DNA from: Prochlorococcus marinus str. MIT 9312
GTDB taxonomy: Bacteria > Cyanobacteriota > Cyanobacteriia > PCC-6307 > Cyanobiaceae
Assembly: GCF_000012645.1 (NCBI RefSeq)
Contig: NC_007577.1
Location: 992,001 to 1,056,000 of the forward strand
DNA: 64,000 nt
Reading direction: 5' to 3'
The position numbers and the translations under genes are program-made. The notes under the pieces are model-generated. The model was not told where the DNA came from, ran no database searches, and saw only the letters and a list, made by a program, of their open reading frames with translations. This document shows, piece by piece, positions 52,476 to 62,935 of this stretch; the stretch's first letter is position 1; each line of letters starts with the position of its first letter.

Positions 52476-53475
52476 AAAAAAGACCTGCATAAGCAGGTCT
52501 TTTCTGTGTATTGGAGGTTTCTAAATTAAACTAATAAATTTAGAATTTGAATGATGTCTTGACCATCATTCCAGTTGTGTCATCTAAATCACCCGCAGCA
52601 TCTTGAGTATAGATTAATGGAGTAATTGTCATACTATCGTTTACTGGGTAAGCATAGTATGCTTCGTACTGATACAACTCATCAGCACTTTCATTAGTAT
52701 TACTGTGACCAGCAGCAATTCCAGCAGATCCTGGACCTACTTCAGCCCATGTTAAACCAACAAAGAAGCTTGACTGTTCATCAGCACCATCTGCTGCTCC
52801 ACCTATGTCTCCGAATTCATAACCAACACTTATTGAAGGAAGATTACCATCAGGAGTGTAGTAAGCCTGCAGTGCTGTGAATTTATTCTCGTCTGTTAGA
52901 GCGGCATTTTCATCAACACCATAGGTTACTGAAAGAGCGTACTTATCAGCTGTATAAGCTGCGTTAATTGCGTATTGATCATCACCCTCTTCAGTGAATA
53001 CATTAGCTTGTACTGTTTGAGCTCCGGCAGCCATTGTAAAGCCATTACCGAAGTCATAAGAACCTCCAAGACCTACTGCACCACCAGTGATTCCAGCATT
53101 TACGTTTCCGCAATCATCTAGCAAGTCACTTGGTCCACCGTATACACAAGCTTGAGTAAATAGCTTGTTACCATCAGTATTTTGACCGAAGAAAGCTGTT
53201 GCTTTGTCGCCAACTGGGAAAGTGTAAGTTACGCCATCAACAGTAAGGCCATCGCCAGCTGAGTTTAAGTCTAATAGATCGTTAATACTGCCAGCACCTG
53301 GGTTACCAGCGTCTATAGCGATGTCAAGTGAATCTTCACCTGTAAAACTTGTATTTAGATCGATCTGGAAAGCGTAACCAGCTTGGACAGCATCGTCTGT
53401 ATCAACACCTGCGTCATCGTCATCGTTAGAACCAATGGCGAAGTCAACAGAGAAAGATGCTGATGTTGTTTCTGA
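52476..53475 (-). repeat. 1000-bp perfect direct repeat, copy 1 (in porin gene 1)
   Basis: This block is base-for-base identical to 53796-54795 (offset 1320), as read line by line. It covers the terminator, 3' UTR and all the porin 1 coding sequence downstream of the codons for FSETTSASF. Boundaries are sharp: AAAAT versus AGACA on the left, GAAAACC versus GAGAAGC on the right. Gene conversion, very recent duplication or an assembly collapse could each explain it. Confidence 0.93.
52481..52500 (-). terminator. Rho-independent terminator of porin gene 1
   Basis: On the minus strand an 8-bp stem AGACCTGC/GCAGGTCT with a 4-base loop is followed by a T-rich run (TTTTTTATTTT). It begins 39 bases after the porin stop. 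It is palindromic enough to also work on the plus strand. An identical copy lies at 53801. Confidence 0.9.
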
Positions 53476-53694
53476 AAACCCACCGTCATGACTATGATCA
53501 TCAACTAATCCTTCTCCACCAGCAAGTAGTGTATTGTTTGAATCTTCATTGCCAAACGAATTAGCAAACTCAATACTCTCAAGATTAGAGTAGTTTGAAA
53601 TTTCACTGAGATTTACTTCACTAGCGCTTACAGAAAAAGGTGATAATAGGCCTAAAGTTGCAGGAGCTACTAGTAAGCTCTTAAAAAGTTTCAT
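52540..53694 (-). CDS. Outer-membrane porin, copy 1
   Basis: The 384-residue beta-barrel begins with a signal peptide (MKLFKSLLVAPATLGLLSPFSVSA, cleaved after SA), then a variable Asp/Asn-rich segment (25-75), then a barrel identical to the second copy from FSETTSASFSVDF on, ending in the aromatic KTSFKF. The two Cys (QACVYGG, DDCGNV) may form a disulfide. It looks like the Som-type porins of Prochlorococcus but lacks an SLH domain. The leader matches the known target region of Yfr1 (see 53701). It is in tandem with copy 2. Confidence 0.9.
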   Translation of the reverse strand: MKLFKSLLVAPATLGLLSPFSVSASEVNLSEISNYSNLESIEFANSFGNEDSNNTLLAGGEGLVDDHSHDGGFSETTSASFSVDFAIGSNDDDDAGVDTDDAVQAGYAFQIDLNTSFTGEDSLDIAIDAGNPGAGSINDLLDLNSAGDGLTVDGVTYTFPVGDKATAFFGQNTDGNKLFTQACVYGGPSDLLDDCGNVNAGITGGAVGLGGSYDFGNGFTMAAGAQTVQANVFTEEGDDQYAINAAYTADKYALSVTYGVDENAALTDENKFTALQAYYTPDGNLPSISVGYEFGDIGGAADGADEQSSFFVGLTWAEVGPGSAGIAAGHSNTNESADELYQYEAYYAYPVNDSMTITPLIYTQDAAGDLDDTTGMMVKTSFKF

Positions 53695-53795: not shown

Positions 53796-54795
53796 AAAAA
53801 AGACCTGCATAAGCAGGTCTTTTCTGTGTATTGGAGGTTTCTAAATTAAACTAATAAATTTAGAATTTGAATGATGTCTTGACCATCATTCCAGTTGTGT
53901 CATCTAAATCACCCGCAGCATCTTGAGTATAGATTAATGGAGTAATTGTCATACTATCGTTTACTGGGTAAGCATAGTATGCTTCGTACTGATACAACTC
54001 ATCAGCACTTTCATTAGTATTACTGTGACCAGCAGCAATTCCAGCAGATCCTGGACCTACTTCAGCCCATGTTAAACCAACAAAGAAGCTTGACTGTTCA
54101 TCAGCACCATCTGCTGCTCCACCTATGTCTCCGAATTCATAACCAACACTTATTGAAGGAAGATTACCATCAGGAGTGTAGTAAGCCTGCAGTGCTGTGA
54201 ATTTATTCTCGTCTGTTAGAGCGGCATTTTCATCAACACCATAGGTTACTGAAAGAGCGTACTTATCAGCTGTATAAGCTGCGTTAATTGCGTATTGATC
54301 ATCACCCTCTTCAGTGAATACATTAGCTTGTACTGTTTGAGCTCCGGCAGCCATTGTAAAGCCATTACCGAAGTCATAAGAACCTCCAAGACCTACTGCA
54401 CCACCAGTGATTCCAGCATTTACGTTTCCGCAATCATCTAGCAAGTCACTTGGTCCACCGTATACACAAGCTTGAGTAAATAGCTTGTTACCATCAGTAT
54501 TTTGACCGAAGAAAGCTGTTGCTTTGTCGCCAACTGGGAAAGTGTAAGTTACGCCATCAACAGTAAGGCCATCGCCAGCTGAGTTTAAGTCTAATAGATC
54601 GTTAATACTGCCAGCACCTGGGTTACCAGCGTCTATAGCGATGTCAAGTGAATCTTCACCTGTAAAACTTGTATTTAGATCGATCTGGAAAGCGTAACCA
54701 GCTTGGACAGCATCGTCTGTATCAACACCTGCGTCATCGTCATCGTTAGAACCAATGGCGAAGTCAACAGAGAAAGATGCTGATGTTGTTTCTGA
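53796..54795 (-). repeat. 1000-bp perfect direct repeat, copy 2 (in porin gene 2)
   Basis: Identical to 52476-53475 across the entire length. It ends inside porin gene 2, just before codons that differ (SFSETTSASF region shared; upstream N-terminal residues differ). Between the copies lie the 5' part of porin 1 and 86 bases of intergenic DNA. Confidence 0.93.
53801..53820 (-). terminator. Rho-independent terminator of porin gene 2
   Basis: Same hairpin as at 52481 (AGACCTGC/GCAGGTCT, loop ATAA in plus sense), followed on the minus strand by seven T. It sits between the two porin genes, so they are likely independent transcription units. Confidence 0.9.
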
Positions 54796-54975
54796 GAAGC
54801 TACCAGCTTCAAAGTTATTAAATCTTGCTTCTAAACCATCTACGCGGCTATTTGTAATAGCAAGTTCTTCAGCAGGGTTAAAGTCATTAATAGTGACTTC
54901 GTTTGCTGTAGCAGCCATAGGAGCTAGAAGTCCTAAAGTGGCTGGTGCTACTAGCAAGCTTTTGAAAAGCTTCAT
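53860..54975 (-). CDS. Outer-membrane porin, copy 2
   Basis: I start at the ATG at 54975 (MKLFKSLLVAPATLG), giving 371 residues; an in-frame ATG at 55038 adds a non-secretory leader and lacks an RBS, whereas 54975 has GAGGA 7 bases upstream. The signal peptide cleaves near MAATA-N. Residues about 25-57 (EVTINDFNPAEELAITNSRV, a short coiled segment) differ from copy 1; all following residues are identical. Expressed copies differing only at the mature N-terminus would have the same pore. Confidence 0.9.
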   Translation of the reverse strand: MKLFKSLLVAPATLGLLAPMAATANEVTINDFNPAEELAITNSRVDGLEARFNNFEAGSFSETTSASFSVDFAIGSNDDDDAGVDTDDAVQAGYAFQIDLNTSFTGEDSLDIAIDAGNPGAGSINDLLDLNSAGDGLTVDGVTYTFPVGDKATAFFGQNTDGNKLFTQACVYGGPSDLLDDCGNVNAGITGGAVGLGGSYDFGNGFTMAAGAQTVQANVFTEEGDDQYAINAAYTADKYALSVTYGVDENAALTDENKFTALQAYYTPDGNLPSISVGYEFGDIGGAADGADEQSSFFVGLTWAEVGPGSAGIAAGHSNTNESADELYQYEAYYAYPVNDSMTITPLIYTQDAAGDLDDTTGMMVKTSFKF

Positions 54976-54979
54976 AAAT

Positions 54980-54988
54980 TCCTCACAC
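54980..54988 (-). promoter_or_regulatory. Predicted Yfr1 sRNA binding site in porin 2 leader
   Basis: GUGUGAGGA precedes this start by 4 bases, complementary to 9 bases of the Yfr1 motif. Both porin leaders share it although it lies outside the 1000-bp repeat, arguing for selection. Confidence 0.8.
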
Positions 54989-55181
54989 GAAATTTTAGAG
55001 TACACCTCAAGATAGTGTATTTGGGCATACAAAATCAAGTATCAAAGACTACATTTTTGAAAGATTTGTGCCAGTTTCTTAAGTTAAACAATCAAAATCT
55101 ATAAAATTTTTTTTACAGAATGGGGGTATTTATACAAATGTATATGCAGATTTGGATGGTAAATTATTGGAAAAAATTATA

Positions 55182-57282: not shown

Positions 57283-57391
57283 TCATACCTAAAAATATCT
57301 ATAGCAGTTTGGTCTTTTATGGATGATTTTTAAATACAATCATATGAGTCAGGCCTGGCGCAACTTGGTAGCTCGGCTTCTTTGGAAGCAT
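57283..57391 (+). pseudogene. Decayed leader plus 5' half of tRNA-Pro(TGG)
   Basis: From about 57283 the sequence parallels the leader of the intact tRNA-Pro gene (ttGGTCTTTTATgGATG versus ttGGTCTTTTATaGATG). From 57349 it parallels the tRNA itself: 33 of 43 positions match 60661-60703, including CTTGGTAGC and an anticodon-loop TTTGGAA with TGG. Stem pairs are broken (for example T/C at tRNA positions 1-3), and matching stops at 57391 before ACTTTTTAC. It is an old integration scar. The following 57392-57582 has no gene except a possible frameshifted tail of the next gene. Confidence 0.85.
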
Positions 57392-57582
57392 ACTTTTTAC
57401 AAAATAGACTGATTCAAATAAAAACCTTCTTATTTTGTTTACGAGCTATAAAGCGAGAGAAAAAAAACTTTTGTAGCGTGGGTGCCTTTGCTATAAAGTG
57501 ATATTTATTATTAACACGACTCGAAATACGTTGACTCTGTTGTCCCAACTTTATTTCCAGACTAACTCCGAGGCTTGGAACT

Positions 57583-59262
57583 CTATTTTGAGGTCCTAAA
57601 ACGCCAAACCAGATTAGCTTCAAAGATATTGGCATCAAGATTGCCATTTTTAGAAATCACTTTTCCTATGCCAGTTTGCAGGCTGTAGTCCTTAGTTAGT
57701 TTGTACTCTAACCCGACACTAGGTTTATACAACAAGGCGCTACCGCTATCAACGCCTCCTCCCCCTCCGGCACCTATTAGCATTTCGCCATAGAGTTGCC
57801 AGTTCTTCCAGCTCGGGCTAAGAACACCTACACCCCAGTGTCCCTCTGAATAGCCACCGGCTCCTCCTGCATACGCGCTTAATCCTTGTCCTGTTAAATA
57901 CCCCCAATCACCTATCATCCAGTCGATTTTACCTCCTAATAGTTGCATATCGCGAGAAGATCCATATCTACGTTGCGCATTAAAATACCATTGGTGCGCA
58001 GGGCGAAAACGCCATTTGGTAGTTTGTATAAGTTCTGATTCCGTTAAGGGATCTCCTTTTTGATCCTGAGCAAATGTTTCCATAACATATGCCAAATTGA
58101 ATCCGGCATATGGTGCTTCATAATTGCCATCTGGAGCGGATAGATAACCGCCATCCATAATTAGACTGAGATGAGGAGAAAATCGGTATTCTAATCCTAG
58201 ATTTGCTCGGGCAACAAATCCTCCCCCGGTTTCGACCTCCCCGCCACCGGCACCTCCTATGGTTAGGGCGGGAAGTAGAGCTAAACGATCATCTTTAGTT
58301 AGCGGGAGGCGATAGCCTAGCCCAGCCAAAAGTTCAGCGTACCCACCCACCCCACCTGATAAGGCACCGGCAGTTTCAAAGGTAGCAAACCAGTTATCAT
58401 CAAGGAAGTAAGAATACTCTACTCCGACCAGTCCCAATGAATCATCAAGCGATGCACCTGAGGTGGTTCTGCTGCCGCTGGAGGGAGAATAGGTGCGAAA
58501 ACGGGCGGCTAGATGTGATCGATGGCGGCTTAAATTTCTCCAGTCGGATCCAAAATAATCGACAGCAGTAAGCCCATCATTTTCCCAACTGAATATCGGT
58601 GAACTGAAGGGGAAATCGAGCGAAAGAGCAATTGCATCGCTGGAAATGTCTCCGTTAGGGAAGTCTACATAGCTATAATTCAGGCCTAGTAAGCTCCAGA
58701 TAAAGTCGTACTTGAGACCGATATGGGGTCGGATATGCAACCCTCCTCCTTGCGCTGCGGCGCCCCCGCCGCCGGCACCCACATAGCCTCCGGCATCAAG
58801 AATTAAGTTATCAGTTAATTGACTTTCCACACCCAAGGTATAGCCCCCAGTAAAGAACCCGCCACGGCGTCCGCTAGCAGCACCGTAAAGAGTTATGCCA
58901 CCATACAGCCAAGGGTTGAGACGATCGTAAGCCCCTATACCATACAAACCCATGTGTTCGCCAGCATCGGGCATGTCAATTTCCTCAAAGGAAAACCGCA
59001 AGGTACGATCTTGCCAAGTTGGAGGTTCCATCCACGCTCCTTTGCCTCCCATAGACTGAAAATCTTCTTCATTTTTAAAATAATTTTCTTCCCCTTTGTA
59101 AGGATTCCAAATAATATCTCCTTCTGGTTTATATTTATTTTTTTTTACCTTTTCCCAATTAATTGAATTAAATTCAGAAGAACCTTTTTTAACTTTTTCT
59201 GCAAACACAACCAGAGAGTTTAAAATTTGAGCAATTATGAAGAAATAAAATGCAAACTTCAT
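57583..59262 (-). CDS. GC-rich triplicated Gly-rich outer-membrane beta-barrel protein
   Basis: The 559-residue product has a signal peptide (MKFAFYFFIIAQILNS...FA-E), an AT-rich, Lys/Asn-rich stretch to about residue 75, then GC-rich DNA to the end. Three related blocks of 65-70 residues occur at about 152-219, 328-394 and 488-555, each with G-A-G-G-G-(G), then G-G-G/S, P-x-x/L-G-L-x-Y and a closing N-x-Y-type beta strand. They look like paired beta strands of a barrel. The family is not known to me. The base composition and the abrupt change suggest horizontal transfer with a native 5' end. A possible frameshift lies near its 3' end. Confidence 0.8.
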   Translation of the reverse strand: MKFAFYFFIIAQILNSLVVFAEKVKKGSSEFNSINWEKVKKNKYKPEGDIIWNPYKGEENYFKNEEDFQSMGGKGAWMEPPTWQDRTLRFSFEEIDMPDAGEHMGLYGIGAYDRLNPWLYGGITLYGAASGRRGGFFTGGYTLGVESQLTDNLILDAGGYVGAGGGGAAAQGGGLHIRPHIGLKYDFIWSLLGLNYSYVDFPNGDISSDAIALSLDFPFSSPIFSWENDGLTAVDYFGSDWRNLSRHRSHLAARFRTYSPSSGSRTTSGASLDDSLGLVGVEYSYFLDDNWFATFETAGALSGGVGGYAELLAGLGYRLPLTKDDRLALLPALTIGGAGGGEVETGGGFVARANLGLEYRFSPHLSLIMDGGYLSAPDGNYEAPYAGFNLAYVMETFAQDQKGDPLTESELIQTTKWRFRPAHQWYFNAQRRYGSSRDMQLLGGKIDWMIGDWGYLTGQGLSAYAGGAGGYSEGHWGVGVLSPSWKNWQLYGEMLIGAGGGGGVDSGSALLYKPSVGLEYKLTKDYSLQTGIGKVISKNGNLDANIFEANLVWRFRTSK

Positions 59263-59427
59263 TTCATAAATCTCTTAATGTTTGATTAATTATCTTTCTA
59301 TAATATTACTCCTATTACATAGATAAATTTAAAAAAGATGAAAGGATTTCTCAAAATCAAGACCTTTTAGTGAGATTAAAGAAATAAGAAAATATCTTAC
59401 TGAAGTTTAAAATTACTTAATTCTTAT

Positions 59428-59463
59428 TTATAAAATATTTAGGAACTTGGTCTTTTATAGATG
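59428..59463 (+). repeat. Copy of the tRNA-Pro leader without tRNA
   Basis: 36 bases match 60599-60634 with 2 mismatches (TTATAAAATATTTAG then TTGGTCTTTTATAGATG), then diverge. It may still act as a promoter. The remaining bases to the gene at 59556, together with 59263-59427, show only AT-rich DNA and a 28-codon frame at 59461-59547. Confidence 0.88.
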
Positions 59464-59555
59464 ACTCAACCAGTAAAACGTAAGTATGATGTTCTGCTAG
59501 AAAGATCAGCAGGTGGGGTTTTCCAGAATAGGGCTAAAGGAGTTTAATTTAATCT

Positions 59556-60521
59556 ATGAACTACTCAAAATTATCAAAAAAATTATTTTTGTCTCTAAGC
59601 ATCTTAGGACTTCTTTTGAATGCTGAACCCTCTAAATCTAATGAGTGGGAAGAGAATGCCGAAACGGTTTCTTGTACTACTGGACATGCAGACATGAGTA
59701 ATGCTGCAGTTGGTGCAGATCACTCCCAACCCTTTTCAATTGTTTCCAATGCAGTTAATCCACATAAAGCTTGTCTGCAAACACCAGAAGGTTATGAAAT
59801 AACTCTATACAAAGTAGGAATGTGCAAAAATAATCCATTTGACGAAACTAATGATAATGTTAATCTCGCCTTTACTGAAGCAAATGGTTGCGTATGGACA
59901 ATGGAATCCTCTGCGGGGGCAACTGTAGACTTAGCAGCGAGTTTAGGTCAATCATCTGCACTACCATCAGCAAGTAGTAGACCACCTTCAGGTACTTATA
60001 AATATTTTCTTATTGTAATGAATCCAAATATCAAATTAAAAGGATCTTTTATAACTACAGACGCTACTAACGGGGGGACTTTCCATACAAAACCAGGGAC
60101 TTCAGAGGTTGATACAGAGGGAGAATTTGATAGCAGCTTATCTTCATCTCAATTTTTTACAGCTGATTTTAGTGATGCGCTTGGATTCAATAATAGAGAT
60201 GAATGTAGGTATTCCTATCAAAGAACAGTTTCAACTGGTTCTAATCAAGGAGTGATACAAGCTGTTTTAACAAATGATCTGTTTGAAACTGCAACCACTT
60301 GTAGTGGGATAACTAAATTAGTTGGTCAATTTAAAGCTACAACTCCAGTTGTGATTAGTGATGAAACTAATGGATTAGAAATTGCATTTAGTATTTCAGG
60401 AGCAGGACTTTGGGTTGAAGGCGGCGGTGGCGGTGGCGGTGCAGGTCATCCAAGAAGCTTACATAATCAGCCAATATATGCTTACGCAGGTGACTTTGTA
60501 CCCAAATTCAAAAAGTTTTAG
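59556..60521 (+). CDS. Secreted protein with C-terminal Gly-rich run, unknown function
   Basis: The 321-residue product has a signal peptide (MNYSKLSKKLFLSLSILGLL, cleavage near SKS-N at about 28). The mature part is acidic, Ser/Thr-rich and probably beta-rich, with six Cys (VSCTTGH, KACLQT, MCKNN, NGCVWT, DECRYS, TTCSG) that may pair. Near the C-terminus seven or eight consecutive Gly (WVEGGGGGGGAG) precede a basic tail. No family is recognised; a surface or extracellular role is inferred. It lies between the leader copy and the intact tRNA-Pro in the island. Its neighbour at 57583 is also Gly-rich. Confidence 0.75.
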   Translation: MNYSKLSKKLFLSLSILGLLLNAEPSKSNEWEENAETVSCTTGHADMSNAAVGADHSQPFSIVSNAVNPHKACLQTPEGYEITLYKVGMCKNNPFDETNDNVNLAFTEANGCVWTMESSAGATVDLAASLGQSSALPSASSRPPSGTYKYFLIVMNPNIKLKGSFITTDATNGGTFHTKPGTSEVDTEGEFDSSLSSSQFFTADFSDALGFNNRDECRYSYQRTVSTGSNQGVIQAVLTNDLFETATTCSGITKLVGQFKATTPVVISDETNGLEIAFSISGAGLWVEGGGGGGGAGHPRSLHNQPIYAYAGDFVPKFKKF

Positions 60522-60598
60522 TAAAAAGCGACAAATCACTAACTTTTCAAACGACAAAATAGCTGCAAAAATAGTTTTCTAGCCTTAAAAGTGATTTT

Positions 60599-60634
60599 TT
60601 ATAAAATATTTAGCAATTTGGTCTTTTATAGATG
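60599..60634 (+). promoter_or_regulatory. Native tRNA-Pro leader / promoter region
   Basis: This 36-bp segment, 26 bases before the tRNA, occurs three times in the window (57.29, 59.43 and 60.60 kb). TTATAAAAT and TTTTATAGAT look like -10 type elements. The recurrence of the leader is the key to seeing the scars. Confidence 0.6.
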
Positions 60635-60660
60635 TCTTTTATGAACTAAGATCTTATGAG

Positions 60661-60737
60661 CGGGGCGTGGCGCAGCTTGGTAGCGCGGGTGCTTTGGGAG
60701 CACTAGGTCGCAGGTTCGAATCCTGTCGCCCCGACCA
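60661..60737 (+). tRNA. trnP: tRNA-Pro (anticodon TGG), intact
   Basis: The cloverleaf has acceptor CGGGGCG/CGCCCCG, D arm GCGC-GCGC, anticodon stem GGTGC/GCACT with loop TTTGGGA (TGG), T arm GCAGG-TTCGAAT-CCTGT, and discriminator A at 60734. CCA is encoded (60735-60737). It is the only complete copy of the tRNA in the window, and the attachment point of the island. Confidence 0.98.
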
Positions 60738-60756
60738 TTTAAAAACCAAGTCATAC

Positions 60757-60785
60757 AAGAGAGTTTCCCAGACTCTCTTTTTTAT
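60757..60785 (+). terminator. Rho-independent terminator after tRNA-Pro
   Basis: An 8-bp stem AAGAGAGT/ACTCTCTT with loop TTCCCAG is followed by TTTTTATT. Starts 19 bases past the encoded CCA. A related hairpin with compensatory pair changes lies at 62741. Confidence 0.92.
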
Positions 60786-60808
60786 TGCCAAGTATAAGAA
60801 AAATAAGA

Positions 60809-60835
60809 CTTAGCGATTATATAGCGATTATTTGC
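60809..60835 (+). repeat. 27-bp direct repeat, copy 1
   Basis: CTTAGCGATTATATAGCGATTATTTGC; 26 of 27 bases are identical to 62521-62547. Internally it is itself a tandem pair of TAGCGATTAT. Located 72 bases downstream of the tRNA. It may be an integrase arm site or a recombination border; in the same orientation as copy 2. Confidence 0.85.
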
Positions 60836-60875
60836 TATACCTTGCATAACCTTGCCGACTTAATCGCTCATACTT

Positions 60876-60897
60876 GTGCAAGTAGTAAGCGTTTCAT
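60876..60897 (-). pseudogene. Start fragment of a MKRLLLA-type secretory gene
   Basis: On the minus strand ATGAAACGCTTACTACTTGC encodes MKRLLLA, then AQV and a stop. The 22 bases are identical to 61267-61288. Its ATG overlaps the stop of the 104-residue gene (ATGA), as if a secretory gene once followed in the same operon and was cut away. Matches the start expected for the gene at the window's end. Confidence 0.7.
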
Positions 60898-61208
60898 TTG
60901 TTTTCTTCAATATATTGTTCGATTTTCTTAATAACCCTTTTTAATATTTCTTTATTTTCTTCTGTATAGTTTTCATATTCAGATTTCCCAGGAGAAAGAT
61001 TCAGCCTCCAATCTGTCTGAGCCTTGATTCTTTGTATTTCCTCTTCTGCATTTGGGTGTACCAAAATGGCGTCGGCATATCTAGCTATTAAAAACTTAAC
61101 TTGGTTCTCAAGTTTTTCTTGTGGAACTTTTACAAATCCATCCCAAAGAAATTTAATTACAAAACCAATTAATGCAAGTTTTAAAAGAGCATCTAAAAAA
61201 GGACTCAT
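60894..61208 (-). CDS. Small N-terminally anchored membrane protein, unknown function
   Basis: The 104-residue product has an N-terminal membrane helix (about 5-22, LDALLKLALIGFVIKFLW), followed by a charged helical soluble region (KVPQEKLENQVKFLIARYAD, then AEEEIQRIKAQTDWRLN) and a Glu/Lys-rich coiled tail (NKEILKRVIKKIEQYIEENK). No family is recognised. A promoter-like cassette lies 12 bases upstream of the start, and the stop codon overlaps the MKRLLLA fragment. Confidence 0.7.
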   Translation of the reverse strand: MSPFLDALLKLALIGFVIKFLWDGFVKVPQEKLENQVKFLIARYADAILVHPNAEEEIQRIKAQTDWRLNLSPGKSEYENYTEENKEILKRVIKKIEQYIEENK

Positions 61209-61220
61209 AAAAAAGAGGGT

Positions 61221-61250
61221 TTTATCCCTCTATTTTAGATCGACTGTCAA
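61221..61250 (-). promoter_or_regulatory. Promoter-like 30-bp cassette, copy 1
   Basis: Minus strand: perfect -35 TTGACA, then an 18-base spacer, then GATAAA as -10. The start of the 104-residue gene is about 12 bases after the -10. Within the same stretch, AGAGGG-CCCTCT forms a hairpin followed by six T, so a terminator-like leader may also be present. 29 of 30 bases match 62437-62466; 26 of 30 match 62903-62932. Confidence 0.6.
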
Positions 61251-61288
61251 TTAATAACTCTTAGCGGTGCAAGTAGTAAGCGTTTCAT
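61247..61288 (-). pseudogene. Start fragment of a MKRLLLA-type secretory gene, second copy
   Basis: ATGAAACGCTTACTACTTGCA runs into codons PLRVIN and a stop that lies within the TTGACA of the promoter cassette. This junction looks like a recombination joint. Only 7 codons match the signal peptide; the rest of the gene is absent. Confidence 0.7.
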
Positions 61289-61411
61289 GTTTTTAAAAAT
61301 CAAGAAATATAAAAATACTTTAAACGCTTATAACTATTGACTTAACAATACTAAAAAATAAAACTTATTTTGGTAATTTTATTAGATTAGTTAATTTAAT
61401 AAAAGATTGAT

Positions 61412-61798
61412 ATGGCTAGGAGAAGTTTTAGTTTTGGTGCATCAGAAGAACTTAAATGTTTAGATGGTTTGAAAAGATTTGAAATTGAAACTGATTCTGG
61501 AGCAGTAGATGTTTGCTATGCAGCAAGAGTTGTGACCGATTCTATTTTTCTTCCTTGGCGAATTTATGTGAAGGATTACGTGTTTTCGAAAGATGGTGAT
61601 ACATACTATGTTCCTTCTGAAGATAATATTAATTATTTTCAAGCTAATGGTGAACTTCCAAATACTATTCCTGAATATTCACTAACTAAGGTTGATATAG
61701 TTTCAGGAAATTTTCTTTGGATTGGATTAGGATTCTTATTGTTATATGTAGGAATTAGTAGCTTTTTTGAAAAGGACGAAACTAAAGATAAAGATTAG
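61412..61798 (+). CDS. Small protein with C-terminal membrane helix, unknown function
   Basis: The 128-residue product begins MARRSFSFGASEELKCLDGL, has a beta-rich soluble part (about 20-100, with VDVCYAARVVTDSIFLPWRI and GDTYYVPSED) and a membrane helix (104-120, FLWIGLGFLLLYVGI) near a short acidic tail (EKDETKDKD). No family is recognised. It is the only plus-strand gene in this part of the island. Its stop overlaps a minus-strand relic of a signal-peptide gene. Confidence 0.7.
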   Translation: MARRSFSFGASEELKCLDGLKRFEIETDSGAVDVCYAARVVTDSIFLPWRIYVKDYVFSKDGDTYYVPSEDNINYFQANGELPNTIPEYSLTKVDIVSGNFLWIGLGFLLLYVGISSFFEKDETKDKD

Positions 61799-61857
61799 AC
61801 AACAACAGCAGTAGTTAAAGCTTGAGCTGCTAGTAGTGCTAGAAGTAAGCGTTTTGT
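61795..61857 (-). pseudogene. Relic of a MKRLLLA-type signal peptide without start codon
   Basis: Minus-strand codons read (T)KRLLLALLAAQALTTAVVV then a stop. The position of the usual Met has ACA, with an in-frame stop two codons before it, so it is not translated as is. Compared with the window-end gene (LAALALPAAVNA) the same leader is recognisable. Confidence 0.65.
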
Positions 61858-61893
61858 TTCTTATTCAGTTTTTGTAATATTCACAAAAAACTC

Positions 61894-62415
61894 TTATCCT
61901 TTTTTATTTATGCTTTCCTTAAAAAAACAATATACCGCTGCATCCTTGACACCTAGTTTTTTAGCTGCCTCTTTATCACTAAGATCAGACGTTGCCCATG
62001 CATAACAAATATTTCTTTTGCTTGCTCGAGTAATTATGGCGAATAGAAGAATTAATGCCACAGAAACATACACAACTAAACTCATCAAAGCAACTTGATC
62101 TTTTCCTTTAGCCTTTTCTTTCCTTGAATTCTTATTTTGTGAACTAACGCTATCATCATTTCTCTTGGTTGATTTTTTGTTTATATCGTTGACACTAATA
62201 TTTTCAACTTTAGTAAATTCTTGTTTTTTATAACCACTTAGAAATTCATATGCATCATTTATTAGCTTTAACCTTTCTTCGGCATTAACATCATTTTTAT
62301 TTAAATCAGGATGCCATTTCTTAGCCTCTTTTCTATATGCTTGCTTTAGTTCATTCTCGTCAAAATCGGATTGTAAACCTAAAATCAATAAATAATAAGC
62401 TATGTCTTTTGTCAA
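61894..62415 (-). CDS. J-domain (DnaJ-like) membrane protein, TTG start
   Basis: J-domain proteins recruit and stimulate Hsp70. The 173-residue product has an N-terminal J domain (about 3-60; AYYLLILGLQSDFDENELKQ, HPD in KKWHPDLNKN at 35-37, KLINDAYEFLSGYK). A Lys/Ser-rich linker follows, then one membrane helix (about 108-128; VALMSLVVYVSVALILLFAI), then a short Cys-containing end. The start is TTG at 62415 with AGGA 8 bases upstream, and the promoter cassette lies 22 bases away. An island-encoded DnaK adaptor is unusual; the target is unknown. Confidence 0.8.
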   Translation of the reverse strand: MTKDIAYYLLILGLQSDFDENELKQAYRKEAKKWHPDLNKNDVNAEERLKLINDAYEFLSGYKKQEFTKVENISVNDINKKSTKRNDDSVSSQNKNSRKEKAKGKDQVALMSLVVYVSVALILLFAIITRASKRNICYAWATSDLSDKEAAKKLGVKDAAVYCFFKESINKKG

Positions 62416-62436
62416 ATAATTCCTAAAAAGAAAGTT

Positions 62437-62466
62437 TTTATCCCTCTATGTTAGATCGACTGTCAA
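62437..62466 (-). promoter_or_regulatory. Promoter-like 30-bp cassette, copy 2
   Basis: TTGACA, an 18-base spacer and GATAAA on the minus strand, 22 bases before the TTG start of the J-domain gene. 29 of 30 bases equal copy 1. Two unrelated genes thus share one promoter sequence. Confidence 0.6.
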
Positions 62467-62502
62467 CTTGAACCACTGTAAAAAGATGAGACCTGGTACC
62501 TA

Positions 62503-62520
62503 TGTAGCACTAGGTTGCAG
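62503..62520 (+). pseudogene. Possible second tRNA-Pro fragment
   Basis: TGTAGCACTAGGTTGCAG resembles GGAGCACTAGGTCGCAG of the tRNA (anticodon stem to T stem), with about three differences. It lies immediately before the 27-mer copy 2, as does the downstream flank in copy 1 order. A chance match is possible for so short a stretch. Confidence 0.35.
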
Positions 62521-62547
62521 CTTAGCGATTATTTAGCGATTATTTGC
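62521..62547 (+). repeat. 27-bp direct repeat, copy 2
   Basis: CTTAGCGATTATTTAGCGATTATTTGC; one mismatch to 60809-60835. The two copies flank a 1.7-kb block with the 104-residue gene, the 128-residue gene and the J-domain gene, as expected for an inserted unit. Confidence 0.85.
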
Positions 62548-62670
62548 ACATCTATGCTAAACATTGCTGCAGATTGGAGCAATATTGAGACTCAAGTAAA
62601 TCCTAGTATTACCAACTCATAAGCTATAGCCTCACTTGTTTCTTATGGGTACTGTCGCAAATTGCGTACT

Positions 62671-62719
62671 GGGTGCTTTGGGAGCACTAGGTCGCAGGTT
62701 CGAATCCTGTCGCCCCGAC
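62671..62719 (+). pseudogene. 3' part of tRNA-Pro(TGG), undecayed
   Basis: 49 bases identical to the intact tRNA from its anticodon stem through the discriminator and first C of CCA (60687-60735). The 5' acceptor and D arm are absent, and upstream sequence is unrelated. Perfect identity suggests a recent event or gene conversion from the intact gene. Confidence 0.93.
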
Positions 62720-62740
62720 TCTTAAAAACCAAGTCATGCT

Positions 62741-62767
62741 AGCGAGTTACCCAGACTCGCTTTTTTA
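62741..62767 (+). terminator. Terminator linked to the 3' tRNA remnant
   Basis: A 7-bp stem AGCGAGT/ACTCGCT, loop TACCCAG, then TTTTTT. Related to 60757 but with A-T pairs changed to G-C on both sides (compensatory), so both hairpins have been kept functional in separate lineages. Confidence 0.9.
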
Positions 62768-62902
62768 TTGGAAATTATGTCGGTTACTTCAGCCGACAAA
62801 AAGCCGACAATTGCATGATTTTTCTTAGTTGTTCATAGGTGTACTCAGTTATTCAATCCGACAGTTATGAACTAAAAATACATTTATAAGTTTTGGTGCT
62901 AC

Positions 62903-62932
62903 TTTACCCCTCTAATATAGATCGGCTGTCAA
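62903..62932 (-). promoter_or_regulatory. Promoter-like cassette, copy 3 (orphan)
   Basis: 26 of 30 bases match copy 1. TTGACA is kept, while the -10 is GGTAAA. No gene starts downstream on the minus strand before the tRNA remnant, so it probably lost its gene. The 62416-62935 gap otherwise holds only the scars listed here. Confidence 0.5.
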
Positions 62933-62935
62933 CAG

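Follow-up and report, generated by a model that had tools for sequence, protein, structure and literature searches.

The gene for tRNA-Pro(TGG) in Prochlorococcus marinus str. MIT 9312 stands near the right end of the stretch of DNA analysed here, which we call the window (64,000 nucleotides (nt), genome bases 992,001-1,056,000; the genome is one contig of 1,709,204 bases), and broken pieces of the same gene lie on both sides of it. We consider it probable that the window contains the left edge of an island of gene cassettes, driven by tyrosine integrases from two sides of one shared attachment site, the anticodon stem-loop of this tRNA gene. What carries this view is a core sequence recurring in copies of the gene, pairs of short direct repeats (arm repeats) near the core, agreement of the two ends in the downstream units, integrases of the same anatomy in relatives, and decay of the core that grows with distance from the intact gene.

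How can a tRNA gene serve as an integration site and be found intact? A 3'-type element would carry the 3' half of the gene, often together with a terminator, beside its paired arm repeats; its integration would restore the gene, place the element directly behind it and displace the old 3' half to the far end of the element. A 5'-type element would bring its own leader and 5' half, and its integration would strand the old leader and 5' half on the left and rebuild the gene on the right. Typical 3'-type units are 1-3 kb long; for those without an integrase gene, the mover would be any integrase, acting in trans, that recognises their arm repeat. Unit 1 (60738-62718), the unit directly behind the gene, with the label TAGCGATTA, would be one such trans-moved unit.

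Pieces of the tRNA-Pro gene in the window and in relatives

The intact gene occupies 60661-60737 on the plus strand, as do all the pieces described in this paragraph, and the core of the shared attachment site lies in its anticodon stem-loop at 60689-60704. It is preceded by a leader (60595-60660), which we infer from its position to be a promoter region, and followed by a terminator-like hairpin (60757-60779), also present behind many 3' copies. Sequence comparison within the window places the starts of three leader copies at 57286, 59424 and 60595. The first belongs to a decayed leader and 5' half of the tRNA (57286-57390; matched part 57292-57390, E 7e-17), which ends at the anticodon-loop core and resembles an attL scar of an upstream, 5'-type element, while the second is a leader only (39 of 43 positions identical, E 5.6e-12). 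On the other side of the gene, a 49-nt 3' part (62671-62719) matches the intact gene at 100% and has a terminator-like hairpin of its own (62741-62761); it would be the right attachment scar of unit 1 and, at the same time, the left end of unit 2. At query position 108 (q108), just beyond the anticodon loop, the 5' half is broken off, and most 3' copies start at about q91-95. Thus, the two kinds of fragments overlap in the anticodon stem-loop, as expected of two sides of one crossover site. The idea of a sigma-70 promoter in the leader was given up: the region has 17 sites against 17.0 expected, and the promoter scan lists none for the leader before the intact gene. It is to be noted that the broken 5' half finishes, at 57376-57389, in the anticodon-stem hairpin and a run of T; the scan takes this for a terminator, by which the stranded leader could be silenced.

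An earlier note on this DNA had listed three leader copies, a decayed 5' half, an intact gene and a 49-base 3' part with its terminator, and all of these pieces are present. It had taken them as an island of nested integration scars within 5.5 kb. The nesting of tRNA-Pro pieces stands, and the extent has to be revised: the island measures about 40 kb and the window holds its left edge only. The fragments on the left and on the right are better read as 5'-type and 3'-type integrations, respectively. The middle leader has no tRNA behind it and is a scar joined to the end of a porin-like gene. Chance likeness of the decayed copies, which the note itself had raised, was dropped in view of the E-values, by which chance is very improbable for every piece.

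Besides the intact gene, the genome of MIT 9312 has 14 further copies of the 3' part, always on the plus strand, within 38 kb (1,054,671-1,092,894), and the first of these copies is the only one inside the window. The corresponding 39-mer (at most three mismatches) was present in all 49 genomes of the genus that are at least 97% complete, including that of MIT 9312, with 2-17 matches per genome if the intact gene is counted, and the reversed control gave none. The genomes of relatives were picked by completeness, integrase or label, that is, not at random. Among 23 loci from these relatives, the apt gene stands left of the tRNA in 16, and the examined stretch gave no apt match in seven; most of the 23 have variable cargo between tRNA copies. 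Recurring 3' ends of the tRNA bound variable cargo at one locus across strains, which is what defines an additive tRNA island. A scan of named genomes for the apt gene gave three loci, all in Prochlorococcus. Had the same fragments been found in identical order in all strains, the earlier note would have been refuted by its own account; 192 units from 43 genomes fall into 162 similarity clusters, and its idea of nested, site-specific events of different ages at tRNA-Pro is consistent with these comparative data. Differences in the left neighbours of units show turnover, and they speak only weakly for movement of the unit itself, because most left neighbours are singletons. The island of MIT 9312 also holds an open reading frame (ORF) for a reverse transcriptase (RVT_1, E 1e-25; L010:339-1796, genome 1,067,339-1,068,796; L and G numbers are our working handles).

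Downstream units, their labels and integrases

Right of the core, direct repeats paired with a period of 11 were found at 84 of the 158 copies from islands and at 16 of the 19 from viral contigs; of 600 windows drawn at random from islands, 40 had them. Periods of 10 and 12 are also raised (21 and 26 of the 158 copies against 10 and 18 of the 600 windows), and that of 16 slightly. The distance from the core to the pair falls mainly into three clusters, 25-34, 49-54 and 70-77 nt, whose spacing of about 22-23 nt may reflect helical phasing. These arms, whose sequence serves as the label of a unit, would be integrase binding sites. Are the two ends of a unit labelled alike? For units of at least 600 nt, one per similarity cluster, the 9-mer of the left arm (at most one mismatch) recurs in the last 350 nt of 88 of 128 non-redundant units, 60 of which have at least two copies, whereas shuffled ends gave a mean of 11.8 and a maximum of 20 (200 shuffles). 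This replaces an earlier form of the test (69 of 100, shuffled mean 9.6), in which the 350-nt stretch overlapped the left arms in short units. When units of at least 1,200 nt were taken, the 9-mer was found at the right end in 66 of 102, against 6 of 102 for a random interior stretch. There are 61 distinct 9-mers, and the number of labels must be smaller, because several 9-mers represent shifts or variants of others. The median length of the units is 1,710 nt (quartiles 1,161 and 2,605). Judged from their matching ends, most downstream units are discrete elements.

Which enzymes could read such labels? The exact 39-mer occurs in 20 IMG/VR stretches, 18 with the 3' part only (44-52 nt) and two with the whole tRNA, and an integrase ORF, in some cases cut or broken, adjoins the core in 16 of the 20. 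A layout like that of attP, namely a short 3' part of the tRNA with arms beside an integrase, is therefore seen in the IMG/VR stretches and not in the window. A hidden Markov model grown from six of their integrases matched 43 integrase ORFs, fragments included, in the loci examined. The core stands right of the integrase in 31 (30 at 70-240 bp, one overlapping by 12), and the script found no core beside the other 12. Sixteen of the 31 are viral and 15 belong to relatives. Arms agree on both sides in half of the viral ones (L031, L032, L033, L018, L030, L026, L029 and L027). In relatives, the left end was available for six integrases and the agreement is clear in three (L041, L054 and L060); in 7 of the 15 a GTGCAGTCT repeat stands between integrase and core instead. 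An alignment of 16 integrases shows no variation at the R, K, R-H, H and Y positions, which are presumably catalytic. L026, L033, L032 and other IMG/VR stretches are probably temperate cyanophages with attP at tRNA-Pro. A group-2-like sigma factor was seen by eye beside the attachment site in L026 and L033, which suggests cyanobacterial hosts. As for phage records, a near search with 51 nt gave one match, 43 nt at 90.7%, and a distant search gave mostly ordinary tRNA-Pro genes among the best 40 of 1236 records.

Unit 1 itself is complete, with the TAGCGATTA label at both ends: the left arm (60811-60831) is TAGCGATTAT twice and the right arm (62522-62543) is TTAGCGATTAT twice, both on the plus strand with 11 bp spacing. 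It has three ORFs, and no integrase gene was found within it. Across the whole genome, PF00589 has two matches, at 364 and 490 kb, both outside the island, and the integrase profile finds just the one at 490 kb; the earlier note was right in seeing no recombinase here. Its suggestion of an integrase acting in trans fits this unit, with matching arms and no integrase of its own, and movement in trans seems the best reading of the sequence. The unit 1 label was found in 72 of 266 genomes of the genus, including that of MIT 9312 (none with the reversed pattern), at many spacings; that is, the cargo varies and the label stays constant. In 22 genomes, counted by hand, the labels are 4,101-4,107 bp apart. 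A 4.33-kb unit clustered in 11 genomes carries the unit 1 label in 10 of them and another label in G030, and it stands directly after the intact gene in three of the 11 and in other slots in the rest. Its ORFs in L053 and L056, named by eye from translations, are arsR, GAPDH, an arsJ-like transporter and pstS, which would make it a putative arsenate/phosphate-type cassette.

It might be asked whether unequal crossing-over between the repeated 3' tRNA parts alone could build and shuffle such an array, the arm repeats being passive baggage. Identical copies of 46-49 nt in direct orientation could indeed recombine, and G030 has the same cargo under another label. However, such exchange leaves unexplained why the same repeat stands at both ends of a unit, why the repeats keep to the three set distances from the core, and why integrase-bearing viral contigs have the identical layout. 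We find this explanation very hard to credit.

Do the units enter at a particular place? Mismatches in a 43-nt core, scored against the core of the window's gene and not against the own core of each strain, become more numerous the farther a copy lies from the intact gene (mean rho 0.68 over 13 loci with at least four copies each; positive in 11 loci and constant in two; within-locus permutation p 0.0005). Slots 1-2 have a mean of 0.08 mismatches, and slots 6 and beyond have means of 3.1-4.9. From this gradient, new units probably enter beside the intact gene. The rise of core decay would also be expected if the units were decayed and immobile remains of integrase-bearing phages or satellites, with shared units spread between strains by homologous recombination through their flanks. 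The presence of hybrid units and the clear decay of the 5' half at 57.3 kb are in line with such remains. Nevertheless, many integrase-less units retain matching arms at both ends, the first two slots are nearly free from mismatches, and the 4.33-kb unit is found in different slots under one label in 10 of 11 genomes. Immobile remains are thus an unlikely explanation, and cassettes moved by integrases stay our preferred one.

The cargo of unit 1 consists of ORFs of 104 amino acids (60894-61208, minus strand), 128 amino acids (61412-61798, plus strand) and 173 amino acids (61894-62415, minus strand); the last has an N-terminal J domain (PF00226, E 2.6e-16), and the first two have no Pfam match. 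Three repeats at 60860-60903, 61251-61294 and 61820-61863, the third being the most diverged, look, on the minus strand, like cut-off gene starts (ATGAAACGCTTACTACTTGC, for instance in MKRLLLLLLAALALP), namely the signal-peptide start of ORFs which are longer elsewhere in the island. Another recurring stretch, TAGATCGACTGTCAA, is found at 61198-61250, 62414-62466 and 62906-62935, near truncated genes, with a hairpin in two of them. Unit 2 begins with a different label, AGCCGACAA twice at 62791-62810 on the plus strand, again with 11 bp spacing.

The upstream side of the gene

On the left of the gene, 17 copies of the leader and 5' half were listed in the window and its relatives; they are partly orthologous and do not represent 17 events, and the list omits the leader-only copy of the window and two matches with E of at least 0.003. 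Eleven of the 17 break at q106-108, five end before it, and one extends to q114. The sequences joined at the breaks are divergent, and 11 of the 17 hold a ATTGCAATAACT-like motif (at most two mismatches) 21-31 nt further on. The motif, seen right of the 5' copies in L035, L040, L048, L188, L196, L197 and others, is perhaps a site for a host factor or an integrase, and since it is shared, the 5' junctions may be one old family of attachment sites. In 6 of 11 copies, a period-10 repeat follows another 60-65 nt on. Shared 10-mers at the 5'-side ends (9 of 11) were not used, as this comparison had no control and the compared stretches overlap in two loci.

The window's decayed 5' half is best explained, from its sequence, as a scar that marks the left end of a second integration, one of the 5' type. 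The element-side sequence right of the break (57391-57470, plus strand) is homologous to the same place in L048, L041 and L049 (74% over 78 nt, E 1.4e-10, for L048); it has a decayed arm-like stretch, AAAGCGAGAG, recognised by eye, and no repeat pair was detected in it. Just 5' of the intact leader, GCGACAAA / ACGACAAAA (60528-60559, plus strand) are putative arm sites of the right end of the upstream element, assigned by resemblance to L195, L048 and L035. Between them, an ORF of 559 amino acids (57583-59262, minus strand), outer-membrane-like by eye and without Pfam match, has a G+C content of 0.45-0.51 against 0.27-0.29 on each side; an 80% identical protein is encoded in L040, between the 5' copy and the tRNA, in the opposite orientation.

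Complete 5'-type elements are found in three relatives. In L188 the order is apt, three stranded 5' copies, 8.5 kb of element (L188:2323-10615) with ligase, VapE-like helicase and HK97 capsid genes, a 462-amino-acid integrase, a different leader, and the intact tRNA. L196 (integrase of 426 amino acids) and L197 (407 amino acids) follow the same plan. The two ends have similar repeats, which are TGTACGCAA in L188 and TTAGTGAC in L196 and L197, as compared by eye without a control. An integrase of 462-470 amino acids is also upstream of the tRNA in six further loci (L185, L186, L187, L189, L190 and L191), whose left ends were not covered or not seen. The element of L188, in which its own capsid, replication gene and integrase are all present, is a candidate for a capsid-encoding satellite. 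Extra partial pieces of the anticodon arm (GCGGGTGC-like) are seen beside arm repeats at 57468-57492 of the window, at the integrase starts of L195 and L196, and at L197:3746-3785; they are possibly accessory half-sites of integrase.

Could the upstream 5' half be simply a decayed tandem duplication of the tRNA gene? The window copy is strongly decayed, only about 115-135 bp lie between the copy and the intact leader in L014 and L050, and L192 has a near full-length copy, all of which would suit a duplication. But a duplication would not account for the common break at q106-108 in 11 of the 17 copies, joined to divergent sequences, many with the ATTGCAATAACT-like motif, nor for the three relatives in which the other end is marked by an integrase, similar repeats and a leader that differs. 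We regard plain duplication as a highly unlikely origin, and continue to read the 5' half as an integration scar.

The middle leader tells a different story. This copy without tRNA (59424-59466, plus strand) is joined at an ATG (59461) to the 3' end of a porin-like gene, 28 codons and the stop (59461-59547, plus strand; 87 nt identical to the full copy at genome 1,094.85 kb). The full porin-like gene stands at genome 1,093,815-1,094,933, followed by a paralogue of the next ORF of the window (together 1,093.8-1,095.9 kb). This next ORF, of 321 amino acids (59556-60521, plus strand), has no Pfam or PHROG match, and its homologues (28-30% identical) pair with a porin in L035 and L047, directly after the tRNA in the former and directly before it in the latter. 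The junction of leader and porin is found in one of the 49 genomes, that of MIT 9312 only. A deletion reaching from the leader to the end of the porin gene would explain this most simply, and the block of porin and 321-amino-acid ORF would be debris of a further unit. Farther to the left, two tandem outer-membrane-like ORFs (52540-53694 and 53860-55038) differ near the N-terminus and otherwise look near-identical, by which a recent duplication or gene conversion is suggested.

Several observations weigh against a two-sided island driven by integrases, and they should be considered together. Excision, a circle or transfer was not observed. Forty of the 128 units tested have no matching ends, and among the viral integrases the arms differ in 2 of 16 (L021 and L028) and have no pair on one side in 6. 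Unit 2 (genome 1,054,718-1,057,106) is a hybrid with unmatched ends, AGCCGACAA on the left and TAGCGATTA on the right, as if a deletion had fused two elements. An integrase with TAGCGATTA arms was not found: the search with TAGCGATTANNTAGCGATTA for a helper of unit 1 gave no viral contig, and by eye none is paired on the integrase side; the TAGCGATTA repeats in L055, L056, L192 and G209 belong to the next unit, because they are right of the core. (A looser pattern, GCCGACAANNNGCCGACAA, gave 90 stretches and was rejected as too loose to name a helper.) On the 5' side, the comparison of repeats had no control, and 5 of the 11 copies, that of the window included, have no period-10 pair. The third leader of the window resembles a native one, in contrast to those in the three 5'-type elements that bear an integrase; from this and the lack of an integrase, the 5' element of the window is either integrase-less or has lost the gene. 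Finally, the tRNA copy in L192 (q15-140) is a single decayed one, which fits plain duplication equally well.

Relation to known elements and meaning for Prochlorococcus

Tycheposons, as Hackl and colleagues reportedly described them in Cell in 2023, are tyrosine-recombinase elements at tRNA genes which remodel the islands of Prochlorococcus, and some of them are said to be viral satellites and others to carry nutrient cargo. The locus studied here shares integration at a tRNA gene with them. A tyrosine recombinase of its own, which is said to belong to the definition, is absent from unit 1 and present in L188, L196, L197 and L041; L188, with the genes mentioned above, and L041, with an integrase, AAA_25 and HupE, are tycheposon-like. 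In contrast to tycheposons so described, small integrase-less units with arm labels are common here, and two types of element use opposite halves of one tRNA gene. Coleman and colleagues, in Science in 2006, reportedly noted repeated tRNA-Pro 3' ends in the island ISL3 of MIT9312 and deduced repeated remodelling; we take ISL3 to be probably this locus, and its repeats to be these repeats. To that account, as reported, the present analysis adds the arm labels, the structure of the units and the 5'-type elements.

Other systems can be compared from excerpts of the literature. Tycheposons are mentioned in the excerpts of PMC10872708 and PMC11389934. The siphovirus P-SS2 matches its host, Prochlorococcus MIT9313, over 53 bp beside int, 36 bp of which are tRNA-Met, and an island of the same host has five pseudo-tRNA copies; the tRNA is a different one, and the excerpt describes no arm labels or cassette units (PMC2784084). 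For the additive flexible genomic island fGI-2 of Methylophilaceae, the excerpt reports no labels per cassette and no upstream events (PMC10872708). Integron arrays without a nearby integrase (clusters of attC sites lacking integron-integrases, CALIN) are, according to the excerpt, alike in that small integrase-less cassettes stand in arrays and are moved in trans, (PMC11389934), whereas here the core is the anticodon stem-loop of a tRNA, the integrases are of phage type, and one array holds several labels. In the open-licence literature we found nothing on arm labels of single cassettes at tRNA islands, which is no proof of novelty. The locus is of a known kind, together with tRNA islands, tycheposons and phage attachment; what we would tentatively call new are the address labels and the rebuilding of the tRNA gene from two sides.

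It is tempting to go one step further and to see here an analogue of the integron based on a tRNA, in which several integrases share one tRNA dock, the paired address of a cassette, mostly with 11 bp spacing, names its mover, and the gene is rebuilt from mobile halves. The leader and 5' half would then come from upstream elements and the 3' half and terminator from downstream elements, and the arsenate/phosphate cassette (about 20 strains, names by eye) would travel on the label of unit 1. We offer this idea tentatively, as one that may well turn out either way and to which we lean slightly less than to its opposite.

Prochlorococcus has a small, streamlined genome with few recognisable prophages, and it has long been asked how it maintains a large flexible gene pool. 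Integrase-less units with paired address repeats suggest a way in which genes come and go in these bacteria. If the cassettes do name their movers, the sequence would tell which phage or satellite can mobilise which gene. And if a tRNA gene can indeed take both its leader and its terminator from mobile elements, a housekeeping gene would depend on its parasites to an unusual degree.

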